This document shows, one piece after another, positions 7,800 to 33,915 of a stretch of DNA of 64,000 bases (position 1 is the first letter of the stretch; each line of letters opens with the position of its first letter). The DNA comes from Fodinicola acaciae (GTDB lineage: Bacteria > Actinomycetota > Actinomycetes > Mycobacteriales > HKI-0501): the NCBI RefSeq assembly GCF_010993745.1, contig NZ_WOTN01000001.1, positions 1,801,235 to 1,865,234 on the forward strand. The letters are read 5' to 3'. A program made the translations under genes and the position numbers. The notes under the pieces were generated by a model. It searched no databases. It was not told where the DNA came from and was given only the letters and a program-made list of their open reading frames with translations.

Positions 7800-8044
7800 C
7801 CACCGCCGATTGGTAGCAAGTGGAGGTTTTCAGCAACCCACAGCGCGATCTTCGCCATGACACCGAGAGCAATGATGATCCCGAAGACCGTGATGACGGT
7901 CGTCTGCGAAACATCGCCTGCCTCAGTATCCTGCCGCCGGATCGCGACTACCCACCTTGCAGCGGCATCGCCGACTCGCATCCGTAGCTCACTAGGTTGC
8001 CTTGCCACTGCTTCGTTCTCCAAATGAGGAAGGTTGGACATCAT
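7796..8044 (-). CDS. Small one-TM protein of the TAD operon (pilin candidate)
   Basis: 82 residues, starting at the ATG that overlaps the TadB-TadC stop (TGATG at 8042-8046). A second ATG follows directly. The polar N-terminal half (LRMRVGDAAARWVVAIRRQDTEAGDVS) is followed by one TM segment TTVITVFGIIIALGVMAKIA and a short tail ending IGGG. Its position between tadC and tadE is where a Flp major pilin is usually encoded. However the canonical G-x-x-x-E processing site is not clear (TEAGDVSQTTV is the nearest), so it may instead be a scaffold subunit. Length suits a Flp-type subunit. Confidence 0.55.
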   Translation of the reverse strand: MMSNLPHLENEAVARQPSELRMRVGDAAARWVVAIRRQDTEAGDVSQTTVITVFGIIIALGVMAKIALWVAENLHLLPIGGG

Positions 8045-9906: not shown

Positions 9907-9913
9907 CGGGTTC

Positions 9914-12150: not shown

Positions 12151-12153
12151 GGG

Positions 12154-12912: not shown

Positions 12913-12945
12913 CTCTATCCCCGTCCTGCTTTGTTCGAAGGTTGG

Positions 12946-14261: not shown

Positions 14262-14660
14262 GTCCACTCCCCCTACCCAGCTAACCTGACCTACTTCCCT
14301 ACACTGCGTACGATCATCGGGACAAGGAGTCAAGCCTCTGGAGGCGGACCTCCACACGCATCCGGATCAAAAACCTGCCGAAAATGCACTCGCGAATGCA
14401 ATTGCAGGTGCACGTGCAAGATTGCCATCCGCTGCGTGAGCTGGGAAAACAGTAGATTTAAGAAAGAGTCGACCCCGACATAAGAACACGTAGAGTAATC
14501 TGACATCACTCTAAGAAATTTCAGGATTTTTATTTCCACATTACCGTCGACTAGTGGGCTGAATCGGATCGGAAACTTCTATTCAGATGAGGGGTCACGC
14601 GAACAGCGATCCGGATGTATCGTCTTGATCATCTACGGCTGAATCTGCGGGGGCAGATTG
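14262..14660. promoter_or_regulatory. AT-rich divergent promoter region between the TAD operon and an HxlR gene
   Basis: About 400 nt without a convincing gene. Base composition drops sharply in 14440-14580 (runs such as gatttaagaaag and gaaatttcagga) compared with the flanking coding DNA. Because the TAD operon reads left and the HxlR regulator reads right, promoters for both most likely lie here. No specific -10/-35 pair is assigned. Confidence 0.45.
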
Positions 14661-14984
14661 ATGAAGATCGACGGCGTACCTCAGGTCGGTGCCATTCTGC
14701 AACGGAAGTGGGCCGGCGAAATTCTCGATGTCTTGTACGACAGTCCGCCGCGCGGACGAATGGAACTGACGACCGAGCTGCGGTCGCGATTCGGCAGACA
14801 ATTCTGCGACAGAGTATGCACAGACACCCTCCGCGTGCTGCGACAACGGGGCCTCGTCGGACATCGATTGCAGAACCGCCCGAGGAGTGCGTACTACTGG
14901 CTCACACCGCTCGGCGAGGACTTCTACCGCGGCCCCATGGCCGACGCCGTCGGCTGGCTGGCAACTCATCCCGAGTTCAAATAA
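14661..14984 (+). CDS. HxlR-family winged-helix regulator
   Basis: 107 residues, ATG at 14661 after GGGGGCAG. It shows the HxlR layout in short form: KWAGEILDVLYDSPPRGRMELTTELR (helix 1 and scaffold), FCDRVCTDTLRVLRQRGLVGH (recognition helix region) and the wing SAYYWLTPLGEDF. It lacks the usual N-terminal Cys-containing arm of redox-responsive HxlR proteins but has Cys in the recognition region. It is divergent from the TAD operon, so it could regulate that operon; this is positional inference only. Confidence 0.75.
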   Translation: MKIDGVPQVGAILQRKWAGEILDVLYDSPPRGRMELTTELRSRFGRQFCDRVCTDTLRVLRQRGLVGHRLQNRPRSAYYWLTPLGEDFYRGPMADAVGWLATHPEFK

Positions 14985-15005
14985 CGATCCTTACCGGAGG
15001 CAGGC

Positions 15006-15365
15006 ATGGAATCGGCGACCCCAAGCACGCCCAAGAAGAAGACGACGCGACGGGCGACTGGAGCCAAAAACGAGTACGCCCGGCGCGCAGCGAAAGAGAT
15101 CCGGGCGCAACTGAAACTGATCGCGGATGCCGGCAATGCGCTTGCGGCGGTCGAAGCCGCCGAGGCGCGATTTGAGAAGGCCAAGGCCATCTACACAAAG
15201 AAGTACGAGGCCGCAGCTCACGGGGTCTCGGAGACTGTCCTGGACCAGTCGGGGCTCCCTGATCCGGCAATCGTCGGCCTGAGTCATGAACGGGCACTGA
15301 GCACGTCGCAGGGAAAGCCCGCCGACATCGTTTCAACCGGCACGGTCGTGAACAGAGTCGCATAA
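15006..15365 (+). CDS. Small Lys/Ala-rich coiled-coil protein
   Basis: 119 residues, ATG at 15006 with an excellent ribosome binding site (GGAGGCAGGC). The basic N-terminus (KKKTTRRATGAKNEYARRAAKEI) leads to a helical, probably coiled-coil stretch (LKLIADAGNALAAVEAAEAR, FEKAKAIYTKKYEAAA), then a flexible tail. There are no membrane segments or recognised domains. It starts 21 nt after the HxlR gene stop and is probably co-transcribed. Function unknown. From its stop to about 15597 I see no gene. Confidence 0.6.
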   Translation: MESATPSTPKKKTTRRATGAKNEYARRAAKEIRAQLKLIADAGNALAAVEAAEARFEKAKAIYTKKYEAAAHGVSETVLDQSGLPDPAIVGLSHERALSTSQGKPADIVSTGTVVNRVA

Positions 15366-15597: not shown

Positions 15598-16485
15598 CTA
15601 CATCGCCGTCCAGGGCCATGGCCGTTGACCATGTTTTCCCTGCAAACACTCGATTCGTTTGGTGGCCTCGCCGAAGGCGTCGGCCCGATCGTTGCCGAGT
15701 TGTGCCGTGTAGCAAGTCATTCGTAGTTCTCGGATGGCTCGATAGGTGCCGTAGTGCGGCCACGTCGTGACATCTTCGCCATAACTGTCAACAAAAAGCG
15801 AGTACTTCTCAGCGCTGATCCAGCCGGTAGTGTCGTTCAGAACAGCGACCGAGACGAGGTCCCACGCAGGCGCTCCGACGACGACGCGTTCGAAGTCGAG
15901 GAGCAGCGTCGTTCCGTCATCCGTCGTGACGACATTGCCCGTGTGTGCATCACCGTGGATGACGCAACAAGGATCCAGAGCCGCGTCCGTGTGGTAAGCG
16001 TGTTGAAGGTGTGCCACCTGTTCGGTCAACCAGGAGCGCTGGTCCGGCGTCAATCGTGGGAGTCGATCGATCGTTTCCTCGTCGAGTCCGACGAAAGGGT
16101 CGAGACGCGGAAGAGAGATCGTTGTAGGCGGCGGCAACTGATGGAGTATCCGCAATAGATGTCCCACGTCGCCTAGCGAACCACTCTTGTGCGCAGGAAG
16201 CTCACGCCAAAAGGTGACGGCACGTTCCTCGACGATGACCGGTTGGTCAATGCCTTCTAGCGGTCGTACGGCCGGGACGCCTTGTGTGGCAAGCCATTGT
16301 GCTACTGCGACCTCCTTCGCCGCGGTAGCTGCCCGTCCTGTCCTGGATATCCGGGCTACGACGCCGTCCGGGAGCCGATACAGCGCATTGCTGCCGATCC
16401 GAATCGGCTGCGCGCCGTGGATGTTGATGCGTACCTGTGCCGCTGCAGTTTCGAGGGCGGCGAAGTGGTCCGACGACGTGGACAC
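15598..16485 (-). CDS. Aminoglycoside phosphotransferase-family kinase
   Basis: 295 residues. APH/choline-kinase fold: IGSNALYRLPDGVVARISR (P-loop-like strand), the catalytic loop VIHGDAHTGNVV with HGDxHxxN at about 177-184, and LLLDFERVVVG (metal-binding Asp near 197). An APAWDLVSVAV motif follows, as in APH(3')-like proteins. The substrate cannot be told; many family members in actinomycetes act on small molecules and not on antibiotics. It begins 26 nt downstream of the XRE gene on the same strand, so the two are probably one transcript controlled by the XRE operator. Confidence 0.8.
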   Translation of the reverse strand: MSTSSDHFAALETAAAQVRINIHGAQPIRIGSNALYRLPDGVVARISRTGRAATAAKEVAVAQWLATQGVPAVRPLEGIDQPVIVEERAVTFWRELPAHKSGSLGDVGHLLRILHQLPPPTTISLPRLDPFVGLDEETIDRLPRLTPDQRSWLTEQVAHLQHAYHTDAALDPCCVIHGDAHTGNVVTTDDGTTLLLDFERVVVGAPAWDLVSVAVLNDTTGWISAEKYSLFVDSYGEDVTTWPHYGTYRAIRELRMTCYTAQLGNDRADAFGEATKRIECLQGKHGQRPWPWTAM

Positions 16486-16510: not shown

Positions 16511-17950
16511 TTAGCTGGCAGAGGCGAGCTGCTCGAGCAGGACCTTCACATCTCCTCGTGCCCTGAACGGACGCGCGGCGGCCTGGACATCGTGACGGTA
16601 GCCGTCGACGCGGGTGGAGTTGATGGTGCCTAGGTGGGCGATCGTGGAGGCGGCGTCAATGGCGAGCGCGGCATCAGGGTCGCTTGCCTTCATGTGGAGG
16701 CTAATGGCCATCAGGTTGCAGAGAGCACGGCTACGCGCGAACTCGTCGCCGTACTGTCGGCCGGCATTGGCCAGCCGGATGCCGGCTTGTGCGACGCTGC
16801 GCTGGCGATCGGCACGAGGAGCCGCCGGGAAGTGCCAGCTGAGGAGACGCCACGCGGTGCCGGCGTCGCCATTGAGCTCCGCCTCGTCGTAGAACCGAAG
16901 CCACGGCTCGCGCTGCCGATCCTCGGCAGAAATTCTCCCGAACTCGATCTCCGCACTGCCGAGCTCGCGTTCGAGGCTCTGCCGCTCGCCTAGGTGGGCG
17001 TGCGCGCGCGCCTTGAGCGCGTGGAGCATGCACTTCACCGTGGCGGTGCCGTCGTCTGCCAACTCCAGGCCGTGCCGCGCAAGGTCGAGGCCCACCCGCG
17101 GGTGTCCGACGTGAACGGCCTGTTTGATCATTGCGCCGAGCATGTACGCCTGGATGGCGTTGCTGTTCGCCTGAGCGGCGAGGCGATATCCGAGAGCGAG
17201 CAGACCGCGGCCTTGCTGCTCGAAACCGGCGTCGTGGCTCTTCCAGCCTGCGACCGCGGCCAACAAAGCCGAAGCGATCATCCATTCACGGCGTACGGCG
17301 TCGGACTCTGCCGTGACTCCGGCATCGAGTTGATGCACCGCCCACCCAAGCTGGCCAATCACCGCTGGGCGCGAGAGCCCACCACCAACGCGGTGATCCC
17401 AGGCCTTGAACATTTCGGTGGTGGCGCGAAGATTCGCGACGTCGTTATTGCTGATCTTGCGGAGCACGTCGGGCTGCTGGCCGGTGATCGCGATGGTCTG
17501 CTGAACGTGTTCCGGAACTGTTGTCAGGCTGGCGCCAAGTGCGTGCATCCATGCCAAGAATCGGCGCCGATGCATGGCATCGTCCTCCGCGCGTCCGTAG
17601 TGAGGCAGGTCGAGATCAACGCTACCCCGCTCGGTCGGCGGACACAGTCGAGGAAGTGGGCTGGCCAGGTCACCAAACAGTTCTGTCGGTGACATACCGA
17701 GAGTTGCGGCGAGAACGGTCTGATGGACCGCGTCGGGGGCTTCGACACCCCCGGTCTCCCACCGTTTGAGGTTTTCGGTCAGCCGTGTCAGATCTGAGGT
17801 CACACCAAGCCGTGCGGCGGCCTTTTGCATCTCGCTAGCCATCCGAGGCCGCGACCACCTGCGGCGATCGCGGCCTGTGCGGACACGCTGGGCCCAGTCG
17901 GGGATGTGTCGTTCCCGCTTCCGACTCTTGAGGTGCTCGTCCTCGCCCAT
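16511..17950 (-). CDS. XRE-type regulator with long helical sensor domain
   Basis: 479 residues, ATG at 17950 after GAGGAGTAGCG. The N-terminal helix-turn-helix (about 20-85: RTGRDRRRWSRPRMASEM, LGVTSDLTRLTENLKRWETG, AVHQTVLAATLGMSPTELFG) is followed by about 380 residues of alpha-helical, TPR-like sequence (AVRREWMIASALLAAVAGWKS, LARHGLELADDGTATVKCML). This is a common actinomycete layout for regulators in mobile or biosynthetic loci. A perfect inverted repeat lies 19 nt upstream of its start, pointing to autoregulation. It is divergent from the primase-polymerase-like and lanthipeptide gene series. Confidence 0.75.
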   Translation of the reverse strand: MGEDEHLKSRKRERHIPDWAQRVRTGRDRRRWSRPRMASEMQKAAARLGVTSDLTRLTENLKRWETGGVEAPDAVHQTVLAATLGMSPTELFGDLASPLPRLCPPTERGSVDLDLPHYGRAEDDAMHRRRFLAWMHALGASLTTVPEHVQQTIAITGQQPDVLRKISNNDVANLRATTEMFKAWDHRVGGGLSRPAVIGQLGWAVHQLDAGVTAESDAVRREWMIASALLAAVAGWKSHDAGFEQQGRGLLALGYRLAAQANSNAIQAYMLGAMIKQAVHVGHPRVGLDLARHGLELADDGTATVKCMLHALKARAHAHLGERQSLERELGSAEIEFGRISAEDRQREPWLRFYDEAELNGDAGTAWRLLSWHFPAAPRADRQRSVAQAGIRLANAGRQYGDEFARSRALCNLMAISLHMKASDPDAALAIDAASTIAHLGTINSTRVDGYRHDVQAAARPFRARGDVKVLLEQLASAS

Positions 17951-17968: not shown

Positions 17969-18003
17969 GGGGTCACGATGACCCCCATGACCCCTATGTG
18001 ACC
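17969..18003. promoter_or_regulatory. Likely XRE operator: GGGGTCA inverted repeat plus direct repeats
   Basis: GGGGTCA (17969-17975), a 3-nt spacer and TGACCCC (17979-17985) form a perfect palindrome. A further ATGACCCC (17987-17994) and a TGTGACC variant (17997-18003) follow. The cluster sits just upstream of the XRE gene and in the XRE/rightward-operon divergent region, the expected place for an autoregulatory site. The rest of 17951-18240 holds no supported gene; a possible ORF reading into the next start is not convincing. Confidence 0.55.
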
Positions 18004-18240
18004 TCTGCCGGCCATGTCTCACCTGCCTCACTCTAAGTGCTTACCACACCACGGACATCGGCATTTCGGAGATCACCCGGCTGACGATGTCCTCCGGTAT
18101 CGGGGAGCGAAGCACATGACCACGGCACGCGACCACCTCGCTGGCAGCAGCGAGACCTGCGACCTTCCGCGGGCTGTTCCGCGTACGGGGACTCGCAGGT
18201 CAGCCGGACGGGCTCCATCGCGTACGGACGGTGGTCTGCG

Positions 18241-18840
18241 ATGACCTTGATGTCCGCGTTGACGATGCGCCGGGCGCGGGAGCGCCGGCGGCTGTCGCGG
18301 CTGCGAGAAGCGGCGGCGCGTTACGTGGGTAATGGCTGGCCGATTGTGCCGATCCGGGATGTCGAGCCGACGGAGCAGACCGCATGGGTCGGGTACGGCG
18401 CGCTCGATGAGGTTCGTGTCCCGGCGATCGATACGCCTACGGTCGCCGCGTGGTGGAGCCATGTGCCCTACCGAGTCGGCCTTGCCACCGGATGCTCGGT
18501 GAACGTGGTGAGTGCACCATCAGCGCTTGGCGCCGCGGCGCATCGGATCTTGGAGATGTCGACGGCGACCGCGATCACTCCGGCTGACCGGTGGCTGTTC
18601 ATCGTCACTCCCTACGTGCAGCTTCCGCACCGTCTCTTCGCTGCTGGCGTACGCCAGCACAGCAGCGGCGAATGGGTGGCGATGCCGCCTTCTCCATCGC
18701 CAAAGGGGTCGACGTACTGGCTGGTCGATCCACGCGTTGTGCGCTGGCAACCAATGCGAGCCGAGGTCGTGCATGCGGTGCTCCTCAACGCACTCCTAGT
18801 GTCCTCGACCCGCGGTGTCCGGGCGGCAGCATGGCTATGA
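18241..18840 (+). CDS. Primase-polymerase-like protein (copy 1), catalytic residues lost
   Basis: 199 residues. LREAAARYVGNGWPIVPIRD, TPTVAAWWSHVPYRVGLATG and a final RWQPMRAEVVHAVLLNAL follow the order of the bifunctional DNA primase/polymerase N-terminal (prim-pol) fold. Where true prim-pols carry the LDVD metal-binding motif this copy has NVVSAPSALG, so catalysis is unlikely. Short, inactive-looking members of this family are common in actinomycete accessory regions and their role is unknown. The exact start is uncertain because several in-frame ATGs lie close together. The stop overlaps the next start (ATGA at 18837-18840). Confidence 0.65.
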   Translation: MTLMSALTMRRARERRRLSRLREAAARYVGNGWPIVPIRDVEPTEQTAWVGYGALDEVRVPAIDTPTVAAWWSHVPYRVGLATGCSVNVVSAPSALGAAAHRILEMSTATAITPADRWLFIVTPYVQLPHRLFAAGVRQHSSGEWVAMPPSPSPKGSTYWLVDPRVVRWQPMRAEVVHAVLLNALLVSSTRGVRAAAWL

Positions 18841-19361
18841 CCGCAGTGCAGCCAACCGCAGATGAGCTTGTCGACCTTCAGCCGGCCGCTGGCGACGACT
18901 CATGCCCTGAAGGGCCCGATGCGGCGGGTACGACGGCGATCATCCGGCCGGTGCAGACCGAAGTCCGGGAGGGTAGCCGAACTCTCTTCGACGTGGATCT
19001 CGTACCGCAGCTACGATCGCGCCGCCTGGACGAATGGTGCACCAAGGCGCTTCCGGCCGACTGCGAGCCGGAAGTGGCGTCGGCTGTGCTGGCCGCGTGG
19101 CGCCGACGGGTCATTGATCGTCTGCTGACAAAGTACGGGCTGGAGTGGCGGATCAACGTCGGCATCGTCGTCACTGAGCGTTCGTGGAACTACTCGCAAG
19201 TTATCGACATCGTCACCCGAGTCGTAGGCGCGACACCGATCGTCGTCCCCAAAGTGTCCGCGGCACCAGAGAGGCCTGGCCGTTCTTCAGTTCTTCTGAT
19301 TACGAGTCCAGAGAAGTCGCGGCGCGCACGGTCGAAAAAGCGGAAGCGGAAACGCAAATGA
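18837..19361 (+). CDS. Hypothetical protein with a strongly basic tail
   Basis: 174 residues, from the ATG overlapping the previous stop; an ATG two codons earlier (18831) is also possible. The acidic N-terminal third (TADELVDLQPAAGDDSCPEG) is followed by a compact region (LFDVDLVPQLRSRRLDEWCT, VLAAWRRRVIDRLLTKYGLEW, INVGIVVTERSWNYSQVIDIVTR). The tail ends in a Lys/Arg run (SRRARSKKRKRKRK) that could bind nucleic acid. No domain is recognised. Translational coupling ties it to the primase-polymerase-like gene before it. Confidence 0.55.
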   Translation: MTAVQPTADELVDLQPAAGDDSCPEGPDAAGTTAIIRPVQTEVREGSRTLFDVDLVPQLRSRRLDEWCTKALPADCEPEVASAVLAAWRRRVIDRLLTKYGLEWRINVGIVVTERSWNYSQVIDIVTRVVGATPIVVPKVSAAPERPGRSSVLLITSPEKSRRARSKKRKRKRK

Positions 19362-19464
19362 ACCGGCGGTCCAATACGCGCCACCGCAAACCGCTCGCAG
19401 TCAGTTCCGACAATGGCGTCGAACTGGCTGCGGGCCAACTATCCGACCGGACATGAGGCCATTG

Positions 19465-19998
19465 ATGGTTAGTTATCAAGAAAATCTGCAAACGATGGCC
19501 GTTGAGTATGCGGAACGCGGGTGGCCCATCGTACCCATGCTCGAGCCAGTGGGGGGCTCAGCCGCCGGGTGGATTGCCGCCGGCGTGGGGCCGTCAACTG
19601 ATCGGGCCACTGCCGTCGCATGGTGGCAGGAGGTGCCGTACGGCGTTGGCCTGGTGACGGGAAAACTGTTTGAGTTCCTGGACGTACCCGGCCGCCTCGG
19701 GCCGCGCGTACACGCGATGTGTGGTCGATCCGTACCTGTGATTGGGAGCGGTGACGACCGCTGGCTGGTCATGGTCACGCCGAGTTCGGCGTTGAAGAAT
19801 GCCCGCCAGGCGTTGCATTGGATCGATATTAGGGTTCGTTGTGATGGCGCCGTTGTGCTCGCACCGCCGACGCGTACGGCTGATGGCGATCTCTTCTGGC
19901 ATCTGCATCCGCACGAAGCCAAGTGGCAACCTGCCGACAGTCGGCTCATCGCGAGGGCTCTGTTGACGCCGACGACTTCGAACGGCGCGTCGCAATGA
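19465..19998 (+). CDS. Primase-polymerase-like protein (copy 2)
   Basis: 177 residues. It is a diverged relative of copy 1: AVEYAERGWPIVPMLEP, ATAVAWWQEVPYGVGLVTG, KLFEFLDVPGRLGPRVHAM, DDRWLVMVTPSSALK and EAKWQPADSRLIARALL line up segment by segment. At the metal site it keeps one Asp (FLDVPG) where active enzymes have LDVD. I chose the ATG at 19465 because GAGG lies 6 nt upstream; an ATG at 19453 is in frame. Family knowledge: regulators or replication accessory proteins in actinomycetes, with no tested function for this short form. Confidence 0.65.
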   Translation: MVSYQENLQTMAVEYAERGWPIVPMLEPVGGSAAGWIAAGVGPSTDRATAVAWWQEVPYGVGLVTGKLFEFLDVPGRLGPRVHAMCGRSVPVIGSGDDRWLVMVTPSSALKNARQALHWIDIRVRCDGAVVLAPPTRTADGDLFWHLHPHEAKWQPADSRLIARALLTPTTSNGASQ

Positions 19999-20025
19999 CC
20001 GTGTTGGCCATCGCTGGCCGGCGAA

Positions 20026-20712
20026 ATGGAATCGGAGGGGGCCGAGGAGGTGGGGCAGCAGCGATCAGAACGCCTGCTGCCCCACCGACCGCCGGTCATC
20101 GTTCCGATCGGATTCGACCTGGGCGCTATGTGGACGTCGCAGCGAACGGTCGGACCGTCGTACGGCGAGGTACGAGCAGGCATGAATCAGCTGTTTCGCC
20201 TGGATCACCAGCCATACATGTTGTGGCGTACGGCTTTTTACGATCCGGATCGTCACGCCAACCTGACCTTCACACGCCGCCACCTCGCCGCGCTGGCGCA
20301 ACGGACGTTCGGCGCGAGACAGGCTGGCGAGGAGATAAACCGGCTCGTCGCTTGCGGACTGCTCGCCGAGCTGCACCCCAACCAGCCATGGCCGTTCTTG
20401 ACGAACTGTCGGATGCTCCCTTCGGCAGAAGGGTTAGGAAACAGTCCCGACGACGTGACACGCTTTATGGTGTCACGAGCAGCGCAACCGGATCTGATTC
20501 TGGATTGGGACCTGTACATGATCTGGTCCACAGCGGGGACGCATCGCAACCTTGCCGACACCGTAAGACAGCATGCGCGACAACAGCGAGCGACGAGAAA
20601 ACAGCTCGACCATCTCGTGCTGGCGACCGCAGCGGCGATACCTGTCCTGGTTTCAACCCACTGCGCATATCTCTTCCATTCGACCGACCGTCTCTTCAAG
20701 TCGGCGAACTGA
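20026..20712 (+). CDS. Hypothetical protein with winged-helix-like segment
   Basis: 228 residues, no family recognised. The central part (QLFRLDHQPYMLWRTAFYDP, FTRRHLAALAQRTFGARQAG, EEINRLVACGLLAELHPNQP) has the spacing of a winged helix-turn-helix. The C-terminal part is helical and basic (DTVRQHARQQRATRKQLDHL) and ends with a hydrophobic stretch VLATAAAIPVLV. It lies 28 nt after primase-polymerase-like copy 2 on the same strand. A nearby GTG at 20050 is an alternative start. Confidence 0.5.
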   Translation: MESEGAEEVGQQRSERLLPHRPPVIVPIGFDLGAMWTSQRTVGPSYGEVRAGMNQLFRLDHQPYMLWRTAFYDPDRHANLTFTRRHLAALAQRTFGARQAGEEINRLVACGLLAELHPNQPWPFLTNCRMLPSAEGLGNSPDDVTRFMVSRAAQPDLILDWDLYMIWSTAGTHRNLADTVRQHARQQRATRKQLDHLVLATAAAIPVLVSTHCAYLFHSTDRLFKSAN

Positions 20713-20767
20713 CACAGAACTGGCGTATCCGTGATCGCTCCGCTAGAAGAGCTACTGGAGCGAGGCC

Positions 20768-21289
20768 ATGACGTACTCGAAACGGCAACCGCTGGGATGG
20801 ATTTTGGACGCGGCAGCAGCCTTTCTTCTTGGCTTGCTCGTCTTCGACGTAATCTTGAAGTGCCCTGCTCGACCGTACGCAGTTATCTTGGTTGCCGCCG
20901 CGCTGATCGGGCGACCGCTGGTCGCGAGGTGGATGGTGCACAGCCGTGAGCGCTCTGTCGCACAGCGCATCGCTGAGCGCATGCAGGCAGCTGACGACCG
21001 GTACGAGCACGCGTTCCTGCTCGTATCGCGGGCAACGGCCTGCAACAGTGAATTCGCACGCGAAGTGCGAGTGGTGAAAACGTTGGCCGCGTCCTTGATC
21101 GAAGACGTCCAATGTGATCGCGACGCGCGGTCGAGTGAGCACGTCTTCGACCTGATCGCCGCACAGCAGGCCGACATGATCACGCAGTTGGAAGCATTGC
21201 TGCGCCAAATGCCGCCAACCGAGCCGATTCGCAGGAGGGAGTCAAACAACCGAATGAAGGCAAGTTTCAGCAGGCGTACCACATTCTGA
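20768..21289 (+). CDS. Small membrane protein directly upstream of the lanthipeptide precursor
   Basis: 173 residues, ATG at 20768 after GGAGCGAGG. Two close hydrophobic segments (GWILDAAAAFLLGLLVFDVI, AVILVAAALIGRPLVARWMV) are followed by a helical cytoplasmic tail (RIAERMQAADDRYEHAFLLV, LEALLRQMPPTEPIRRRES). No family is recognised. Its stop is only 10 nt before the precursor ATG, so it is probably in the same transcript; an immunity or export-helper role is possible but unsupported by homology. Confidence 0.55.
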   Translation: MTYSKRQPLGWILDAAAAFLLGLLVFDVILKCPARPYAVILVAAALIGRPLVARWMVHSRERSVAQRIAERMQAADDRYEHAFLLVSRATACNSEFAREVRVVKTLAASLIEDVQCDRDARSSEHVFDLIAAQQADMITQLEALLRQMPPTEPIRRRESNNRMKASFSRRTTF

Positions 21290-21299
21290 AGGGAAGCCA

Positions 21300-21464
21300 A
21301 TGTACGTCATCACGGAAACGACGAGCGCCACCGACGTCGACGACACATTCACGCTCGACGTGCAAGTCACAACGGAAGATCAACTTCGGGGCGTCGAGGC
21401 GCCATGCAGCACAAATGACGGCTGCGCGGCCAGTTGCGCCTCGTCCTGCGCCAGTCGGGGCTAA
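21300..21464 (+). CDS. lanA: FxLD-family class I lanthipeptide precursor
   Basis: 54 residues, ATG at 21300 preceded by GAAGGGAAG. The leader contains FTLD at residues 17-20, the FxLD box that names this lanthipeptide family and is the expected LanB/LanC recognition site. The core region, from about residue 34, has four Cys (36, 42, 46, 50) and Ser/Thr at 37, 38, 45, 48, 49 and 52 as dehydration sites. The core contains a single Asp, D40, directly followed by Gly, which suits the PIMT-type methyltransferase encoded downstream (methylation, succinimide, isoaspartate). The cleavage point is not evident; no leader peptidase or ABC transporter is seen beside it. Small size makes it easy to miss. 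Confidence 0.85.
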   Translation: MYVITETTSATDVDDTFTLDVQVTTEDQLRGVEAPCSTNDGCAASCASSCASRG

Positions 21465-21476
21465 ACCGGGCGGTCT

Positions 21477-21520
21477 CGCGGGTACGGGACAGGTCCGGCA
21501 CGTCCGTGCCCGTACCCGCG
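21477..21520 (+). promoter_or_regulatory. Intercistronic hairpin between precursor and dehydratase
   Basis: CGCGGGTACGGG (21477-21488) and CCCGTACCCGCG (21509-21520) form a perfect 12-bp stem. Inside the loop, GGCACG (21497-21502) and CGTGCC (21505-21510) can form a competing 6-bp hairpin. It starts 13 nt after the precursor stop and ends 40 nt before the LanB start, with no U-run. In lantibiotic operons such hairpins act as partial terminators or RNA stabilisers that keep precursor above enzyme levels; that role here is inferred from position. Confidence 0.7.
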
Positions 21521-21559
21521 ATCCAACCGACCATCTCGTTAAACACAGGAAGGTTCCAC

Positions 21560-24500
21560 GTGCCTCGAAAAACAGCCGAAGGCGAGCACTACCGGCAGGC
21601 CGGCGTGGCATTGCTACGCGCGGCGGTGCGCCCGGTGTTGGGTTCTTCGACATGGTGGCCAGACCCTTCAGATGCCGAAGAATGCCTCAGCTGGCTGCGA
21701 AAAACGTGGACGGAAGACGCCCAGGCAGAGGCCATCGCACACGCTAGCCCTGGGCTAGCGGCGTACGTACGCCAACTATTTGCTGCCACTCCGGAAAAGC
21801 TTCAACTTGACGACCCGGCGGTAGCGAAAAAGATTCGTCGAGCCACTGCTGCAACCGCGCGCTATGTCCTACGCGCAACGGGTCGACCGACGCCATTCGG
21901 GCTGTTCGCCGGCGTTGCTCCTGTGGAGATCGGGAGGGACGTACAGACGTGGTGGGGAACCCGTCATCATCCGATCGCTCGTGTGGACACCGAATGGCTT
22001 GCCGACATCGTCCAGCGCCTGGAGTCGAACGAGGCGTTGCTGGAGCGACTCGACGTGCAGTTCAGCAACCTCGCCCGCCGCCGCGGTGACCGCTGGGAAC
22101 TCCCCCGCGGTCCGAGCCGCGTATCGATCAACGCCACGTCGGCCCTCACCGCTACGAGCGAGCTCGCCCGATCGCCCATCCGTTTCAACGATCTCGCTGA
22201 CGCGCTGACCGAGCAATTTCCCAACAGCGACCGCGCCACGGTCGTACGCGCCCTGGCCGAACTGGTCCAGCACGAATTCCTCATCACCTGCCTGCGCGCT
22301 CCCCTAATCATCATCGATCCACTCGCCAACCTCATCGGAGAGCTCGACGCGATCGGCGCAGCCGACGTACCAGCGGCAGGTCCGCTGCTGACCGAACTTC
22401 GTACGATCCATACCGAGCTCGACCATCACAACCACGCTTCACTCCATACGGACGCAGAGAAATCTCCGGCTGCAGACGATCAGCGCGCACAGATCGTCGA
22501 TCGAATGCGGTGTCATTCCACGGTTGGCCGTACTCCGCTTGCCGTGGATCTCACTCTGGACGCAAAACTCGCATTGCCGATGGGTGTGGCTGACGAGGTC
22601 GCGCGCGCGGCGAGCGCGTTGCTGCGGCTGACCCGCTACCCAGCCGGCCGCCCGGTCTGGCAGGACTACCACGCGGCGTTCGTCGAGCGGTACGGCATCG
22701 GTGCCCTAGTCCCGGTCGCCGAGGTCACCGGCACCAGCGGAATTGGATATCCCGCTGGCTATCCCGGCAGCGTATTGCCGCTGCCCATCGAGAACGTAGT
22801 CAGCGAGCGAGACCGCCGGCTGTTCGCATTGATCTGGGCAGAGGTGTGCACTGGCAGCAACGAGCTCATGCTCACCGACCAGATGATCGACGAGATAGCT
22901 GGAGACTCACTCAGACCGGACCGCGTACCGCCGCACGTGGAGATCGCCGCCCGCATCCACGCCAGCAGCCGGGACGCAGTCGACCGCGGCGCCTACCTTC
23001 TCACTGTCGCGCCAGCCCGTGCCGGTGGCGTTCTGACCTCAAGGTTTACTCCCACCACGACGGGCTCTGGTTTGGAGGACGTCTACCGAAACCTTCCGGT
23101 GAGCACGGAAGGCGCGCTGCCGGTTCAGGTGTCTTTTCCTCCGGCGTACGCCCACGCAGAGAACGTCTGCCGCGTGCCCGCGTACCTGCCGCACGTTCTC
23201 TCGCTCGGCGAACATCGCCATCCAGACGAAAACATCCCCATCGACGACGTGGCCGCGTACGCCACCCACGATCGCCTCCACCTGGTCAGCCTGTCCCGCC
23301 ACCGGATCATCGAACCGCAGGTCTTCCACGCTCTCGACCTCGACAAACAGCCGCCGCCGTTGGCGCGCTTTCTGGCGCATCTGACTCGGGCGTACGCGGC
23401 CGCGTTCACGGTTTTCGACGCCGGGCCAGGTGGTGACGAGCTCCCCTACCTGCCTCGGATCCGGTACGGCCGGGCCATCCTCGCCCCGGCGAGATGGCGC
23501 GTGACCAGCCGCGACCTACCACCGACGAGATCCGCCGAGCAGTGGCAGTCCAACCTTCGACGATGGCGAGACCGCTGGCGTCGACCGGTTGAGGTCGACC
23601 TGCGCGATGACGATCGCAGCATCCGCCTCAACCTCGACGAGCCGCTGCACGCCGACCTCCTGCGCACCCACCTCATGCGTACGGGCCAGGCCGTACTCAC
23701 CGAACCGCCGCATCCCAGCACGTATGCATGGCTAGGCGGACGCGCCCACGACATCGCTTTCCCCCTCGCCACCACCCATCCGCCGGCACCATCACCCCTC
23801 ACCCATGTGCCAACCGCCGTCGACAATCACGGGTCCGCACAGCTCCCAGCAGGCCCGGATTCTCGCTGGCTGTCCGTGAAACTCTTCAGCCATCGGGATC
23901 ATCTCGACGCGATCATCAGCCATCGCCTACCGGCGCTACTGGCCGACATCTCCCAATCGGTCGACGACACTGAGCCGGCGTACTGGTTCGTCCGCTACCG
24001 CAGCGCCAACGAAACGGACCACCTCCGACTGCGGCTGCGCCTCATCGACCCTCACGCGTACGGAACGGCCGCAACAGCATTAGGTGCGTGGTCGAAGGAC
24101 CTGATCGGCCACGGCATCGCCAGCCGGCTCGCTTTGGACACCTACAACCCCGAGCTCGGCCGGTACGGCCACGGCCATGCCATGCATGCAGCCGAAGCGG
24201 TGTTTACCGCCGATTCCGCAACCGTCATGGCGATGCTGCAGCACACCCGCGAAATGGCTGTCGACCCGATGGCGTTGGCCACCTTGAACATGGTGCACAT
24301 CGCTACCGGCCTGCTTGGCGACGACGAGGGAATGGCGTGGCTGGCGACCCAGCCCACGTCGCCTGCAGCGCGACCCGATCGTACGGTCGCGTCGTACGTG
24401 ACCGGGCTCGTACGCGCTCGACAGCTGCCTCGCTGGCCCATCAAAGTCTCGGCAGCCTGGCGGGTCCGCGCCGACACGTTGCGCGCGTACAGGCCGCAGG

Positions 24501-24667
24501 TGGCGCGACTGGCGGATATCGATACGGTGCTGGAATCACTACTGCACATGCACCACAACCGCGCCATCGGCATCAACGGCGACCACGAACGCACCTGCCG
24601 ACGCCTCGCCGGCCAGGCCGCACGCGCGTACTGCGCTACCACGCCGGCAACGATCGGCACCTCATGA
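21560..24667 (+). CDS. lanB: LanB lantibiotic dehydratase, full length
   Basis: 1035 residues, GTG at 21560 with AGGAAGG 6 nt upstream; an upstream in-frame TTG overlaps the precursor and is rejected. The N-terminal glutamylation domain (about 1-700) includes PTPFGLFAGVAPVEIG and the tract EDVYRNLPVSTEGALPVQVSF, and the C-terminal elimination domain (about 760-1030) includes WLSVKLFSHRDHLDAIISHR and YWFVRYRSANETDHLRLRLR. Class I LanB enzymes use glutamyl-tRNA to glutamylate Ser/Thr and then eliminate glutamate to give Dha/Dhb. Both halves are present in one protein, as in nisin-type LanB. It ends in an ATGA overlap with LanC. Confidence 0.9.
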   Translation: MPRKTAEGEHYRQAGVALLRAAVRPVLGSSTWWPDPSDAEECLSWLRKTWTEDAQAEAIAHASPGLAAYVRQLFAATPEKLQLDDPAVAKKIRRATAATARYVLRATGRPTPFGLFAGVAPVEIGRDVQTWWGTRHHPIARVDTEWLADIVQRLESNEALLERLDVQFSNLARRRGDRWELPRGPSRVSINATSALTATSELARSPIRFNDLADALTEQFPNSDRATVVRALAELVQHEFLITCLRAPLIIIDPLANLIGELDAIGAADVPAAGPLLTELRTIHTELDHHNHASLHTDAEKSPAADDQRAQIVDRMRCHSTVGRTPLAVDLTLDAKLALPMGVADEVARAASALLRLTRYPAGRPVWQDYHAAFVERYGIGALVPVAEVTGTSGIGYPAGYPGSVLPLPIENVVSERDRRLFALIWAEVCTGSNELMLTDQMIDEIAGDSLRPDRVPPHVEIAARIHASSRDAVDRGAYLLTVAPARAGGVLTSRFTPTTTGSGLEDVYRNLPVSTEGALPVQVSFPPAYAHAENVCRVPAYLPHVLSLGEHRHPDENIPIDDVAAYATHDRLHLVSLSRHRIIEPQVFHALDLDKQPPPLARFLAHLTRAYAAAFTVFDAGPGGDELPYLPRIRYGRAILAPARWRVTSRDLPPTRSAEQWQSNLRRWRDRWRRPVEVDLRDDDRSIRLNLDEPLHADLLRTHLMRTGQAVLTEPPHPSTYAWLGGRAHDIAFPLATTHPPAPSPLTHVPTAVDNHGSAQLPAGPDSRWLSVKLFSHRDHLDAIISHRLPALLADISQSVDDTEPAYWFVRYRSANETDHLRLRLRLIDPHAYGTAATALGAWSKDLIGHGIASRLALDTYNPELGRYGHGHAMHAAEAVFTADSATVMAMLQHTREMAVDPMALATLNMVHIATGLLGDDEGMAWLATQPTSPAARPDRTVASYVTGLVRARQLPRWPIKVSAAWRVRADTLRAYRPQVARLADIDTVLESLLHMHHNRAIGINGDHERTCRRLAGQAARAYCATTPATIGTS

Positions 24668-25872
24668 CAATGACCAGGACGGACGACCTCCTCGCCAGCC
24701 CACCCGACCACGAGCCCTGGCCAGGTTGGTACGAAGACCTGTACGCCGGGGCGCCGGGCATTCTCCTGCTTCACGCACATCGAGCCAACATCGATGCTGC
24801 GCCTTGGGAAGTCGTGCATCAGTGGGCCAGGAAGATCACCAGCCGCCCACTCACCGCCAATCCCAATGTCGGTGGCCTCTACCGCGGGGTCGCAGCAGTT
24901 GCTTTCGCCCTGCATGCCACCGGCCAGCCGGCGTACGAACCGGCGCTGCAAACCCTCGATCGACACATCGTCGACCTCGTTCGCGAGCGGATTCGTCGCT
25001 CGCACCGTCGAATCAGCGAACGACGCCTCCCGCAGCTGGCTGAGTTCGATCTCATCCGCGGCCTGACCGGGCTCGGCGCATATCTGTTGTCTCGCGCCAA
25101 CCAAGACGTACTCCGCGACGTTCTTGCGTATCTTGTCCAGCTAACACATCCGATCGCCATCAACGGCGATCGGATGTGCGGCTGGTGGTCCGCCGACCTA
25201 CCGCCGAACAACCAGCATTCCCATCAGCGAGGCGGTCACGGCAACCTCGGTCTCGCTCACGGCATCGCCGGCCCGCTCGCATTGTTGTCCTTCGCCGCAA
25301 AGTCCGGGATCGCAGTCCAGGGGCAGCTCGACGCAATCCGCCGGATCAGTTCGTGGCTGCAACAGCAGGCAGACGAAACCAATGGGTGCGTACGGTGGCC
25401 AGAATTCATCGGGTCCGACCGCGGCTGCGCCACCCAATTGCAAGGCCGGCCATCATGGTGCTACGGGACACCCGGCATCGCGCGCCCTCTCCAAGTCGCT
25501 GGCCACGCGCTGAACGACCCGGACCTCAGTCAGTACGCTGAATTCGCCGCGGCTAGCTGCGTCACCGACGAACAGCAACTTCGCCTCATCCGCGATGCGT
25601 CCTTTTGCCATGGCTGGGCGGGTCTGCTGTACACCGTTCACCGCATCGCCGCCGACGCGTCCAGCAGTACCGCTCTCACCGGCACGCTGCATCAACTGCA
25701 GGAGCGTCTGAAGGAGAGCATGGTCGACGGTCAACTCGCCAATGCCGGTCTTCTCACTGGCACCGCCGGCGTACGACTCGTTGACGAGAGCTATTCCCGT
25801 AGCCCGACCGAAATTCCGTGGGATGCCTGCCTGCTCCTTGACACCCGTTCAATCGCGAAAAGGACGAAATGA
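24664..25872 (+). CDS. lanC: LanC lanthionine cyclase
   Basis: 402 residues, translationally coupled to LanB (ATGA). The alpha-toroid Gly-rich turns are visible (YAGAPGILLLH, LIRGLTGLGAYLL, GLAHGIAGPLALL, SWCYGTPGIARPL, FCHGWAGLLYTV). The Zn ligands are Cys266 in SWCYG and Cys315-His316 in FCHG; His199 in LAHG is the expected acid/base residue. The reaction is Michael-type addition of Cys thiols to Dha/Dhb in the dehydrated precursor, giving lanthionine rings. With four Cys in the precursor, up to four rings are possible. Confidence 0.9.
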   Translation: MTMTRTDDLLASPPDHEPWPGWYEDLYAGAPGILLLHAHRANIDAAPWEVVHQWARKITSRPLTANPNVGGLYRGVAAVAFALHATGQPAYEPALQTLDRHIVDLVRERIRRSHRRISERRLPQLAEFDLIRGLTGLGAYLLSRANQDVLRDVLAYLVQLTHPIAINGDRMCGWWSADLPPNNQHSHQRGGHGNLGLAHGIAGPLALLSFAAKSGIAVQGQLDAIRRISSWLQQQADETNGCVRWPEFIGSDRGCATQLQGRPSWCYGTPGIARPLQVAGHALNDPDLSQYAEFAAASCVTDEQQLRLIRDASFCHGWAGLLYTVHRIAADASSSTALTGTLHQLQERLKESMVDGQLANAGLLTGTAGVRLVDESYSRSPTEIPWDACLLLDTRSIAKRTK

Positions 25873-27074
25873 ACAACGCCGTGGCCAGCTCACCTGACGA
25901 ACTTCGCACCCGCATGGTCGACAAAATCCAACGCAGCATCTGGCCGCCGTCTACACAGGTGGTCGAAGCCATGCTGGCCGTCCCGCGGCACGAATTCGTC
26001 CCCAACGCACCGCTGGCCGACGCGTACGACGACATGAGCGTCATCACCAAAACCGCGCCTGACGGCACCGCACTCAGCTGCGCCTCAACGCCCACCATCG
26101 TCGGCATGATGCTCGACCAACTCGACGTGCAACCCGGCCAGCGCATCCTGGAAGTCGGCGCCGGAACCGGCTACAACGCAGCCCTACTCGCTCACCTCAC
26201 CGGACCCACCGGCCACGTCACCACCGTCGACATCGACCCCGAAGTCACCGCCGACGCGCGCCGCAACCTCGACGCCACCGGCAACGACCGCGTACACGTC
26301 GCTACCCGCGATGGTGCACTCGGCGACGCCGACCACGCACCGTACGACCGGATCATCGTCACCGTCGGCGCCTGGGACATCCCTCACGCCTGGTGGACCC
26401 AACTCCGTACCGGCGGCCGGCTCGTCGCACCGCTGCGATGGCGCGGCCAAACCCAGAGCATCGCCTTCACCCACCACGGCGACCACATGACCTCCGAATC
26501 CATGGGCCTATGCGGCTTCGTCCCCATGATCGGACAAGACGGCGAACGCACCGGCCACATCGAACCCGACGGCCACGTCACGCTCTACTTGGACATCGAC
26601 CAACCCATCGCCCCTGAGCACCTCACGAACGTTTTGGACCAGCCCAAAACCACAACATGGTCCAGGGTCACCGTCGGACCGGACGACACCTTCGACGGCA
26701 TCTGGCTCCGCCTCACCGCCACAGAACCCGGCACTTGCCGCATCGCCGCGGACCGAACCGCCATCGACACCGACCTCTGCACACCCGCTGTCGGCGTACG
26801 CACTCCCGCGATCGTTGAAAACACCTCGCTCGCCTACCTCGCCATTCACCGACCGGCGCGCCAACCCGACCCCGACAACCCGCAGTTCGAACTCGGCGCC
26901 ATCGGACACGGCCCCACCGGCGCGGAGCTCGCCGACCGCCTATGCGCCCAAACCCGCGCCTGGGACACCAACCGCGCCACCCATCCGCGGTTGACTGCCT
27001 ACCTTCCCGAGGCCGGCGCGGTCCCCGAGTACGTCATCAGCAAGCGGGAATGCCGGCTCTCAATCACCCTTTGA
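25869..27074 (+). CDS. FxLD-system PIMT-like O-methyltransferase (LanS-A type)
   Basis: 401 residues, ATGA overlap with lanC. The N-terminal half is a protein L-isoaspartate O-methyltransferase domain: MLAVPRHEFVPNAPLADAY (39-53 region), SCASTPTIVGMML, and the SAM-binding motif ILEVGAGTGYNAALL near 93-106. The C-terminal extension of about 180 residues is not in housekeeping PIMT and marks the lanthipeptide-associated family. Known members methylate an Asp side chain in class I lanthipeptides, which cyclises to succinimide and opens to isoAsp. The precursor here offers a single Asp in its core, followed by Gly. A late GTG-free tail ends ECRLSITL. Confidence 0.85.
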   Translation: MNNAVASSPDELRTRMVDKIQRSIWPPSTQVVEAMLAVPRHEFVPNAPLADAYDDMSVITKTAPDGTALSCASTPTIVGMMLDQLDVQPGQRILEVGAGTGYNAALLAHLTGPTGHVTTVDIDPEVTADARRNLDATGNDRVHVATRDGALGDADHAPYDRIIVTVGAWDIPHAWWTQLRTGGRLVAPLRWRGQTQSIAFTHHGDHMTSESMGLCGFVPMIGQDGERTGHIEPDGHVTLYLDIDQPIAPEHLTNVLDQPKTTTWSRVTVGPDDTFDGIWLRLTATEPGTCRIAADRTAIDTDLCTPAVGVRTPAIVENTSLAYLAIHRPARQPDPDNPQFELGAIGHGPTGAELADRLCAQTRAWDTNRATHPRLTAYLPEAGAVPEYVISKRECRLSITL

Positions 27075-27573
27075 TGGTTGCGGCGGCGGTGCTGAAAGCG
27101 ACGAGCGATGAAGATGCGCGGCAACGAATTCGCCTGCCGCGTGATAACTGGGCATTATGTTCGCTCACCGACCAAGTTGCCGAACCGGAGCGCGGCCCGA
27201 TCCGGACCGACCATCATCACTGGCGGCATCAACGGAGGGCCTTCTGCGATGTCACCACATTGCACGATGCGACCACGCCCCTGGCTCAACCGCGCCGGCG
27301 GGCCGACCAGAGATCCCGTACGGCCGCGATGATCAACGACAGGCCGATCCCACGACGACACCGCCAACAGCGACAGCAATCAGTGTGAGCTGCGTCTGAT
27401 CCACGCCGTCCGACGTTACCTGGACAGAAACACCGGAAGAGGTGAATCGACGCTGAGTCGAATGGAGGAGGTTGCGATGGCCGTCCGGTCCAACGTTGCC
27501 GCGAGTACCGTCGGGACGACGCCGCCGAGGTGCACAGTAGTAGCCCCGCTCCGTGGATACGAGGAGGCTAGGA
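27075..27573. other. Gap with possible remnant of a small membrane protein on the - strand
   Basis: About 500 nt without an intact gene. On the minus strand, between about 27470 and 27290, a stretch reads VSVQVTSDGVDQTQLTLIAVAVGGVVVG and, in the next frame, IGLSLIIAAVRDLWSARRRG. Together these look like one N-terminal beta strand plus a single TM helix broken by one frameshift. It may be a dead small gene or chance. GAGGAGG at 27561-27567 serves the following rightward gene. Confidence 0.3.
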
Positions 27574-31377: not shown

Positions 31378-33915
31378 CTACTCGATCGGGATCTCGACTG
31401 GGAGATGGAGGAGATTCGCGATGGGTGTGTAGAGGTCGACGCTCGTCGCCCCGGTCTTGAGGGAGACAATCAGCCCGTATCGCACTCGCTGATTGACACG
31501 GTCGCGTTTCTTGTTGTTCTTCCACCAGCCACCGACGGGGTAGACGGCGAGTTTGCCGGTCGCGGCGAGTTCTGCGCCCGAGGTCTCCCAGATGTCCTGG
31601 TGGAGGGAGCCGTAGTTGCGCTGATTAGGTCCGACGAGCCATGACACTCGGCCACCAGCCGGGCGTGCACCTGCTTCCTCGGTGCGTGCTTCCTGGTTGA
31701 CTCGCTGGACGAATTGTGCCTCGCTTTCGAGTGGGTCCTGTAGCTCGAATCGGAGGCCATGCGATGCATACTTGTACCGCTGCCGCCAGCCGCGCCGAGA
31801 CGCGGTTGGTTCGATGAAGTAGGAGAGAGTTACGCGCAGGCTCACCGAGGCAGCGCCTAAGTCTTGGAGGACCTCACGTGGCCATGGAAGGTCGTGCAGC
31901 CGGAAGGACGGGACCTTGAACTCATCACCTTCAAATGGGGTGAACGCATCCTGTACGACGAGGGTGACTGCCCGCTCGGTTGAGTAGAGGACTCTCTCCT
32001 CCGCCGGCACACCCCAGCCGTACCGGCGAAGGCGCAGCTGCTGCGCCTGACGGCCCTGCTTGCGGCTCTGGTCGATCTCGTTGCGCATCACGGGCGTCCA
32101 CTCAGCGGCGTGGACGAGCAGAGCGCGGACCGTCTCTGGCCAGTATTCGGGGTAAGTCGCCATCACCAGAGCGGCGAGCCTGGCTGCTTGAGCGGTGGCT
32201 GCGCTGGTGGCGTTGGCCGATGCCAGCGATTGGTCATTTGTGTGACCGGTGGTTCGCAATGAGAGTGCTGGATGGTTTGGCTCGAACATGGAAGCGCCGT
32301 CGTGAAGTACGTTCCCGCCTTCCATGACGATGTCGGGCTTGATTGGCCAACTGCGCGCGCCGAAGGGAAGCGAGGTGCGGCTATGAGGCGACAAATCGCC
32401 TTGTTGGGCAACAGCCGACCACCCCTCGTATGCGGGGTCGGTCGGGATTGTGGTCAGGTCTGTATACGCGCCGACTGTCAGCACGTTCCAGGCTTGGCCA
32501 GGGTCTTCGATCGCAGATGTGTCTGACTCATCACGAGGGTTGACCGCAAAGTGATTGATGTTGCCGGTGGACACGACAAACAGTCGTGCGGCGTTGGTGT
32601 CAGGCGGCGCGAGCAGACGAAGGGCACTGCCATCCCTGACCACGCTCGCACCCACCGCAAGCGCATCGACGGTCGCAGACCACAAAGTTGGCTGACCGGG
32701 ATTCCCTGGCGTGTCGCTCGTCGTGCTGACGGGCATGCAGAACGCCCGCCGTCGCGTCGTGGTGATCTCGGGTAGCGACACGGCCTGCGCGGTCACGTCA
32801 CCGTAGGTAACTGGGACGTGCTGGGGCTCGGTTTTCGTTGGAAGGATTCGGACTGATTCCAGTCGGTGACGAAGCGGTATTTGATCTGACTCGACGAGGT
32901 GTTCGTCCATTTTGTCGCCGAGGAGCGCGACGCCGGCCATCTTGGTGCCGTGGCCATTTTGGTCGGAGCCGCTGACGCCGACCACTGTATGGAGATCCTG
33001 TGCCGCGAGTGATCCTTGGAGAAGGACATGGGTGCGGGCCACGCCCGTGTCGAGGTGACAGACGGCTGGCTGAAGCTCGTCTGCGGGCTCAAGCCGTCGC
33101 GCTAGATCATCGACGTACTCGGCCTGCTCCTGCAGGCTGAGGTCCTCGATAGTGTCGATGAACTCAGGGCGCCGAATCTCGGCGACGGAGACGGCAGTAA
33201 AGGGAAGTATTTCGAGCTGAGCCCACGTGGATTCGACCCACGTGACCTCACGATCTATAAGACTGAGCAACCGATCCGACATGCGGAGCCCGTTGACCTC
33301 AGCGAATCGCCGCAGCAGCACGGCTCCGCTCTCACCTGGTCGTAACCAGACTTCCCACCAAGTCTTCTTTCCTTCAGGTGGGGCGCCGTCAGATTGCCAG
33401 AGATCGAGTAGGACGGTCGACCGAATGCGGGCGATGTTGGCGACAAGCTCGTTGTTGCGTGGCATGCCCCTGGGCGTCTGCTTGCCGAGGTAGTCCTCGA
33501 AGAGTTGGAGGAACTTCGCCCGGTATTCGTCACTTACCCAGACTGTGGCGCGCTCGGGAGCGCCCGTGTTGCGGTCGGCAGGAAACACGGAGAGGAGGAG
33601 CCATCTCGGTCGTGGGTCTCTGTGGGTCGTGAGCTGTTGGAGCGTGTCGAGCTTCAGTGGATAAGCCGGGTCATCGCCTTCCAACGTGATGATGGTCCCG
33701 AGTGCGTGAAGCTCGTCTTCAGTGAGCCGTTGAGTCCGATTCTCGTCGGCAGCAGAGAAGGTCGATTGCAGCTCACTCAGGCGATCGCGGCCGTGACTGG
33801 CGCGGTCTTCGACTGGCCGGATCTGGGGATTGCCTCGACCTGGGCGGCGGAACGCCTCGTTTGCCGAACGGTCCTCTACTAGGAGGTGGCTGAGGTGTTG
33901 GTGACCATCAGCCAA
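31378..33915 (-). CDS. ietS: Subtilisin-like S8 protease of an IetAS-type pair
   Basis: 845 residues by the TTG at 33915, which overlaps the upstream ATPase stop by 8 nt. An N-terminal domain of about 275 residues precedes the S8 core: Asp289 (VCHLDTGVARTH), His322 (QNGHGTKMAG), oxyanion Asn452 (STGNINH) and Ser571 (ANATSAATAQAA). A beta-rich C-terminal region of about 200 residues follows. There is no signal peptide, so it acts in the cytoplasm. A cytosolic subtilase encoded directly after an AAA ATPase is the IetAS arrangement, reported as an anti-phage defence system. All catalytic residues are present, so it should be active. Confidence 0.8.
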   Translation of the reverse strand: MADGHQHLSHLLVEDRSANEAFRRPGRGNPQIRPVEDRASHGRDRLSELQSTFSAADENRTQRLTEDELHALGTIITLEGDDPAYPLKLDTLQQLTTHRDPRPRWLLLSVFPADRNTGAPERATVWVSDEYRAKFLQLFEDYLGKQTPRGMPRNNELVANIARIRSTVLLDLWQSDGAPPEGKKTWWEVWLRPGESGAVLLRRFAEVNGLRMSDRLLSLIDREVTWVESTWAQLEILPFTAVSVAEIRRPEFIDTIEDLSLQEQAEYVDDLARRLEPADELQPAVCHLDTGVARTHVLLQGSLAAQDLHTVVGVSGSDQNGHGTKMAGVALLGDKMDEHLVESDQIPLRHRLESVRILPTKTEPQHVPVTYGDVTAQAVSLPEITTTRRRAFCMPVSTTSDTPGNPGQPTLWSATVDALAVGASVVRDGSALRLLAPPDTNAARLFVVSTGNINHFAVNPRDESDTSAIEDPGQAWNVLTVGAYTDLTTIPTDPAYEGWSAVAQQGDLSPHSRTSLPFGARSWPIKPDIVMEGGNVLHDGASMFEPNHPALSLRTTGHTNDQSLASANATSAATAQAARLAALVMATYPEYWPETVRALLVHAAEWTPVMRNEIDQSRKQGRQAQQLRLRRYGWGVPAEERVLYSTERAVTLVVQDAFTPFEGDEFKVPSFRLHDLPWPREVLQDLGAASVSLRVTLSYFIEPTASRRGWRQRYKYASHGLRFELQDPLESEAQFVQRVNQEARTEEAGARPAGGRVSWLVGPNQRNYGSLHQDIWETSGAELAATGKLAVYPVGGWWKNNKKRDRVNQRVRYGLIVSLKTGATSVDLYTPIANLLHLPVEIPIE

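Follow-up and report, generated by a model that had tools for sequence, protein, structure and literature searches.

A probable class I lanthipeptide operon of the FxLD/LanSA family in Fodinicola acaciae

A stretch of 64,000 nucleotides from contig NZ_WOTN01000001.1 of Fodinicola acaciae (the window) was analysed, and four adjoining genes on its forward strand, fxlA, lanB, lanC and fxlM, are the subject of this report. In window coordinates, these genes and the region between the first two are as follows.

21300..21464 (+): fxlA, FxLD-family lanthipeptide precursor, 54 amino acids (TIGR04363, 17-sequence alignment, pattern of synonymous changes)
21465..21559 (+): fxlA–lanB intergenic region with a strong hairpin (folding energy against shuffles)
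21560..24667 (+): lanB, full-length class I dehydratase, 1035 amino acids (PF04738, PF14028; relatives 5ehk and NisB 4wd9; motifs RPTPFGLF, LHMHHNR)
24664..25872 (+): lanC, cyclase, 402 amino acids (PF05147; NisC 2g02; motifs WCYG, CHG)
25869..27074 (+): fxlM, stand-alone PIMT-like Asp O-methyltransferase of the LanSA/PAMT type, 401 amino acids (TIGR04364; PIMT structures, e.g. 1dl5)

The translation of fxlA is MYVITETTSATDVDDTFTLDVQVTTEDQLRGVEAPCSTNDGCAASCASSCASRG, and the purine-rich sequence GAAGGGAAG stands upstream of its ATG. The peptide carries an FTLD leader box at residues 17–20, cysteines at residues 36, 42, 46 and 50, and the TxDGC motif in the form T38-N-D40-G-C42; its core would begin at about residue 35, the predicted cleavage site. 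Against the curated model TIGR04363 (‘FxLD family lanthipeptide’) it scored 31.9 bits (31.6 in the genome search) at a cut-off of 30, and it resembled the FDLD family class I lanthipeptides (NF038155) weakly, with 14.3 bits, under the cut-off of 20. FxL[DNE] followed by TxD[GN]C was found in one of the 772 open reading frames (ORFs) of at least 25 amino acids in the window, and shuffling its residues 200,000 times never left the peptide with FxLD followed by TxDGC. That fxlA is a chance ORF was ruled out by the profile match, the gene context and the codon pattern.

Each of the four genes has an open frame; three are preceded by a purine-rich site, and lanC is coupled through its overlap. The ORF list opens lanB at TTG 21434, within fxlA; in our judgement GTG 21560, preceded by AGGAAGG, is the better start. 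Pfam cut-offs were passed for Lant_dehydr_N (598 bits), Lant_dehydr_C (146), LANC_like (150) and PCMT (154), and separate full-length LanB and LanC genes adjoin the precursor, the arrangement of a class I cluster (PF04738, PF14028, PF05147). Among solved structures, the sequence relatives of LanB were 5ehk (‘Lantibiotic dehydratase’) and NisB, that of LanC was NisC, and those of FxlM were PIMTs. FxlM scored 412.3 bits against TIGR04364 (‘methyltransferase, FxLD system’; cut-off 320) and contains EVGAGTGYN; this, RPTPFGLF, LHMHHNR, WCYG and CHG are taken here to be catalytically meaningful motifs, those of LanC presumably the zinc-ligand motifs. A preliminary description of the DNA had placed a 54-residue gene with an FTLD box and four cysteines ahead of full-length LanB, LanC and a PIMT-like gene, had described the enzyme genes as coupled by ATGA overlaps and had proposed an FxLD profile search of the precursor. 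The frames and the Pfam and NCBI profiles agree with the first point, both overlaps (lanB/lanC and lanC/fxlM) were seen, and the search returned the match given above. The stretch 21465–21560 folds with a minimum free energy of −44 kcal/mol (z −3.28; none of 200 shuffles equally good), and the hairpin is a possible attenuator or processing stem. A terminator-like T run was not found at the hairpin, a consensus scan of 21100–21600 gave no promoters and no terminators, and the repeats in 18000–27200 were low-identity families only, taken as chance.

TIGR04363 gave two matches at E ≤ 0.001 in the 8.86-Mb genome, both ahead of lanB, lanC and fxlM. Besides the window cluster there is therefore one other (G, C and L denote our numbers for genomes, contigs and loci, G000 being this genome).

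Contig C3 of the same genome: second fxl cluster, precursor 936,975–937,091, fxlM to 942,707

The two clusters share identities of 74% in FxlM, 52% in LanC and 61% over 896 positions of LanB. A precursor match was found in five of 61 relatives, the source genome included, and in seven of 396 genomes (six over the cut-off) in a survey of the phylum that scored just 18 candidates per genome. The gene order precursor–lanB–lanC–fxlM was annotated in eight of 13 plasmid loci (L022, L023, L024, L026, L027, L028, L056 and L058) and recurs at L055, where the precursor record says hypothetical and the assignment was made by position. At L057 fxlM stands first; a short LanB-like gene lies at L021, which has no annotated precursor; and L025 and L054 carry fxlM without LanB. 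Three of the 13 plasmids were typed as conjugative, three as mobilizable and seven as non-mobilizable; type IV secretion genes lie within about 10 kb at L026 and L027. Searching plasmids with the fxlA precursor by tblastn gave no match even at E 10, probably owing to its short length and the low-complexity filter. fxlM matched 557 plasmid records, and in 54 of these the match spanned at least 80% of the query; many of the 557 are rhizobial and may be ordinary PIMTs. Named relatives were also sought in the genome contigs, where 14 pattern stretches were found and none was confirmed.

Three side observations concern other genes of these enzyme families. At G000:C1:684422–685555 (L053 9402–10565) lies a third methyltransferase of the FxLD type, which exceeds the cut-off with 345 bits; no LanB or LanC match was present in the 19 kb read around it, and it may be an orphan or an enzyme of the pamtide/imiditide type. 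A motif search gave no precursor at L053, nor at L021, L025 or L054. The genome is rich in LanB-type genes, with eight long Lant_dehydr_N matches (L040–L047, the window lanB included), and an ORF at window 62455–63849 (−), far from the fxl operon, has a 140-bit match to the window LanC.

L19, T38, D40, C42, C46 and C50 were invariant in all 17 aligned sequences, an alignment that left out L026 (identical to L022), L018 (G135, below the cut-off and with an internal stop), the precursors of L055, L056, L057 and L058, and a second G044 ORF and a third G083 hit, which if aligned would break the invariance of T38 and D40. Those of L055–L058 all keep TxDGC or TxDNC, and C36 is present in only part of the family. 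The C3 row begins within the leader and not at a start codon, and at least one of the GTG-start plasmid rows was typed with M. TxD[GN]C occurred in 21 of the 23 distinct precursors, a count that takes in all but L026 and L018. Extra precursor ORFs at L006/L012 (G044: SDNGC) and L020 (G083: SDGGC), near normal ones, have Asp directly after Ser. Over the 20 core codons, the congeneric genome G001 differs by 13 synonymous and no nonsynonymous changes (seven codons identical), the C3 cluster by ten and two (eight identical) and G044 by seven and five (eight identical). Residue identity in the core was 20/20 for window–G001 and 18/20 for both window–C3 and C3–G001; in the leader block adjoining it, identity was 8/19, 9/20 and 7/20, respectively. 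Because the codon differences are mostly synonymous and core identity exceeds that of the leader, the core is very probably translated and conserved.

The preliminary description had called the cysteine spacing CxxxC-like, the core unlike the nisin type and the product perhaps a new peptide. Its cysteine positions stand, the exact pattern being C-x5-C-x3-C-x3-C, and the core does differ from the nisin type, but only in ways typical of the FxLD/LanSA family. The novelty did not survive. TxDGC and the cysteine spacing are common to annotated Streptomyces plasmid FxLD precursors, the same 20 residues occur in the congeneric genome and, with two changes, in the second cluster, and the comparison with known FxLD precursors that it had proposed returned the invariant T38, D40, C42, C46 and C50. 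A new core architecture was rejected on this comparison; judged by its residues, the fxlA core is typical for its family. Two exact-letter core strings matched no paper in the literature searched.

These data suggest, with high confidence, that these genes form a class I lanthipeptide operon belonging to the FxLD/LanSA (‘lanthimiditide’) family and predicted to make a peptide with a T38–C42 ring and a modified D40. The reading is drawn because the precursor and methyltransferase pass curated cut-offs, the LanB and LanC domains are full length, T38, D40, C42, C46 and C50 are invariant in the aligned precursors, the core codons that differ from G001 do so silently, the gene order recurs on plasmids, and both the OlvA route and the TxDGC motif have been published. 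The three enzymes very probably convert the fxlA peptide to a ring-shaped, aspartate-rearranged lanthipeptide, by steps that are each predicted. Judging from the family, the FTLD box would recruit LanB, which would dehydrate Ser and Thr residues of the core; class I LanB dehydratases use glutamyl-tRNA. LanC would then add cysteine thiols to give (methyl)lanthionine rings, at least T38–C42, with other ring partners drawn from S37, S45, S48, S49 and S52 and from C36, C46 and C50. By homology, the T38–C42 ring would enclose N39-D40-G41, and FxlM would then methylate D40 within it. The D40 ester would collapse to an aspartimide and hydrolyse mainly to isoaspartate, as reported for OlvA, where 70–80% isoaspartate results (PMC13001092). 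According to the same source, the PIMT homologues of class I lanthipeptide clusters target a conserved core Asp, usually before Gly, and OlvSA works only after OlvB and OlvC. TxDGC is described as the motif of most precursors among 1305 lanthipeptide clusters with such enzymes (PMC10787088), and PMC13001092 gives this motif too.

Several observations weigh against this assignment. The precursor exceeds the TIGR04363 cut-off by just 1.9 bits. A PDB search with it, in which OlvA was sought, returned only a ferredoxin (E 0.21), and the predicted ring map is therefore based on the family alignment and a review. Two of the 23 precursors carry SD[GN]GC in place of TxD[GN]C, those of L055 and L056 have only two core cysteines, and the leader box of the C3 precursor is FNLN rather than FTLD or FxLD. 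In G001, whose precursor core is identical, the matches to each of lanB, lanC and fxlM are split between two frames; this may reflect draft errors or decay, and that copy may be non-functional. In a Pfam scan of 25 other window ORFs we recognised neither an exporter nor an immunity gene, and no protease clearly dedicated to leader removal. The preliminary description had called the set complete, which holds for the modification genes and not for these other functions.

The cluster might also be intact yet silent or decaying, with no mature peptide made. The second fxl cluster with its near-identical core and the other LanB genes could make the window copy redundant, the G001 copy is split in three genes, and no exporter was recognised among the neighbours scanned; set against this are the four open frames with their purine-rich sites and overlap coupling, the full-length enzyme domains and the mostly synonymous core changes, and we consider silence or decay unlikely. 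Class I enzymes would also suit a nisin-type antibiotic binding lipid II. However, the 54-residue sequence is without SxxxCTP(G/S)C, the lipid II motif given in PMC7268733, and the scanned neighbours include no recognised immunity or transporter gene, which leaves such a product improbable. That FxlM, a member of the PIMT family (PF01135), is a protein-repair enzyme adjoining a plain lanthipeptide operon by chance and not acting on the peptide is hardly credible, given 412 bits for TIGR04364 where the best repair-PIMT model reached 164, no match over the TIGR04364 cut-off in any of 14 control genomes, a core Asp invariant in the 17 aligned precursors and the reported action of OlvSA on cyclised OlvA (PMC13001092).

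Upstream of the predicted lanthipeptide operon, the following genes were assigned.

16511..17950 (−): NsdA-family TPR-like regulator, divergent (NF053720, 230.9 bits, cut-off 75)
19453..19998 (+): small Prim-Pol-domain protein (PF09250, 58 bits; homologue, 50%, upstream of the second fxl cluster)
20026..20712 (+): 228-residue protein, no family over cut-off (homologue, 57%, upstream of the second fxl cluster)
20768..21289 (+): 173-residue protein, no Pfam or NCBIfam match (homologue, 39% over 122 amino acids, upstream of the second fxl cluster)

Homologues of the last three occupy the same place before the C3 cluster; the comparison with 40 kb of G001 gave no homologue of any of them. From its position, the NsdA-family protein may act on the fxl operon. 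The genome has five NsdA-family genes over the cut-off, two of which adjoin the two fxl clusters; as both clusters lie in paralogous blocks, the two pairings are not independent. Regulators at L007, L010, L022 and L028 also passed the NsdA cut-off, that at L023 reached 66.4 of 75, and the candidates tested at L009 (G001) and L012 gave no NsdA-family match. A profile built from six of these regulators was run on 22 fxl loci with a LanB-like gene, the lanB of L007 being counted from a separate comparison. It matched strongly (at least 399 bits) at nine loci, six of which were its own seeds, and weakly (57 to 144 bits) at eight, with no match at five (L009, L021, L048, L055 and L056); L054, which is without LanB, gave 35 bits. 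These matches suggest a likely, not proven, association of NsdA-family genes with fxl operons. A literature search pairing ‘NsdA’ with ‘lanthipeptide’ found no paper.

Further upstream, homologues of the window genes at 3825–15365 recur in conserved order ahead of the C3 fxl cluster; these genes include a TadA/VirB11-like ATPase, a T2SSF protein and a CpaB/SAF protein. The window from 3825 to 27074 and G000:C3 from about 918,000 to 942,700 are paralogous islands, each with an fxl cluster at one end, and no window gene tested downstream of fxlM matched the C3 region. Protein identities between the two are 46–78% in the Tad-like block and 52–74% in the three enzymes, therefore the blocks are old paralogues and not a recent duplication. 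In G001, homologues of 12946–13731 (46% over 130 amino acids) and 13725–14357 (32% over 104 amino acids) lie about 17 kb upstream of the fxl cluster, and the TadA/VirB11-like ATPase had no match there; the link between island and cluster may be partly shared within the genus. An APH-like kinase gene at 15598–16485 (−) has a homologue near the G007 fxl cluster and resembles class V LxmK only weakly (14 bits); in this gene the islands differ, as it had no match in the C3 stretch compared. The lone protease among the 25 scanned ORFs is a subtilase at 31378–33915. It is paired with an AAA ATPase, and the pair, window 31378–34873 (−), matches the IetS/IetA anti-phage defence models; for these reasons the subtilase was not assigned to the fxl operon, and a role in leader removal is possible.

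Between genomes and between the two paralogous islands the core stays nearly unchanged while the leader varies; the scan of neighbours recognised neither an immunity gene nor an exporter; and an NsdA-type regulator and, in this genome, Tad-like genes lie nearby. From these observations one could argue that the peptide is a signal or partner-recognition factor of a mobile or island-borne locus and not a conventional antibiotic, a suggestion we hold only tentatively and at low probability.

As an FxLD/LanSA-family operon, the window cluster adds one more member to a large family that already has a name. Such clusters number 837 to 1305 in two papers (PMC13001092, PMC10787088), and antiSMASH already used the FxLD profile in 2014 (PMC3930743). 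Alone it is of little importance, the family having been named, counted and partly reconstituted, and the remaining questions of role, export and mature form belong to the whole FxLD family. It is nevertheless a reasonable member in which to seek a native product and role, because the core is identical in the congener across 13 silent changes and occurs twice, near-unchanged, in one genome.

The characterised lanthimiditide system of Streptomyces olivaceus, OlvA/OlvB/OlvC/OlvSA, shares the class I enzymes and the PIMT-like LanSA; the likeness is drawn through the enzymes and motif as described. The two differ in that the OlvA system was worked out biochemically, whereas the product of the window cluster is predicted from its genes. 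The Streptomyces plasmid FxLD clusters of NZ_CP108603.1 and NZ_CP108010.1 share the order fxlA–lanB–lanC–fxlM and the cysteine spacing from C36 on, and also have a divergent upstream regulator (NsdA family over the cut-off in NZ_CP108603.1, 66.4 of 75 in NZ_CP108010.1). The NZ_CP108603.1 precursor, which reads ...ACGTGDGCAASCASSCASAV and is annotated as an FxLD lanthipeptide, shares most core residues as well. These clusters differ from that in the window in their methyltransferases (47–48% identical) and in the other small upstream genes, and they are plasmid-borne, whereas the window sits on a 3.2-Mb contig. The second cluster on C3 has the same three genes upstream as the window cluster.

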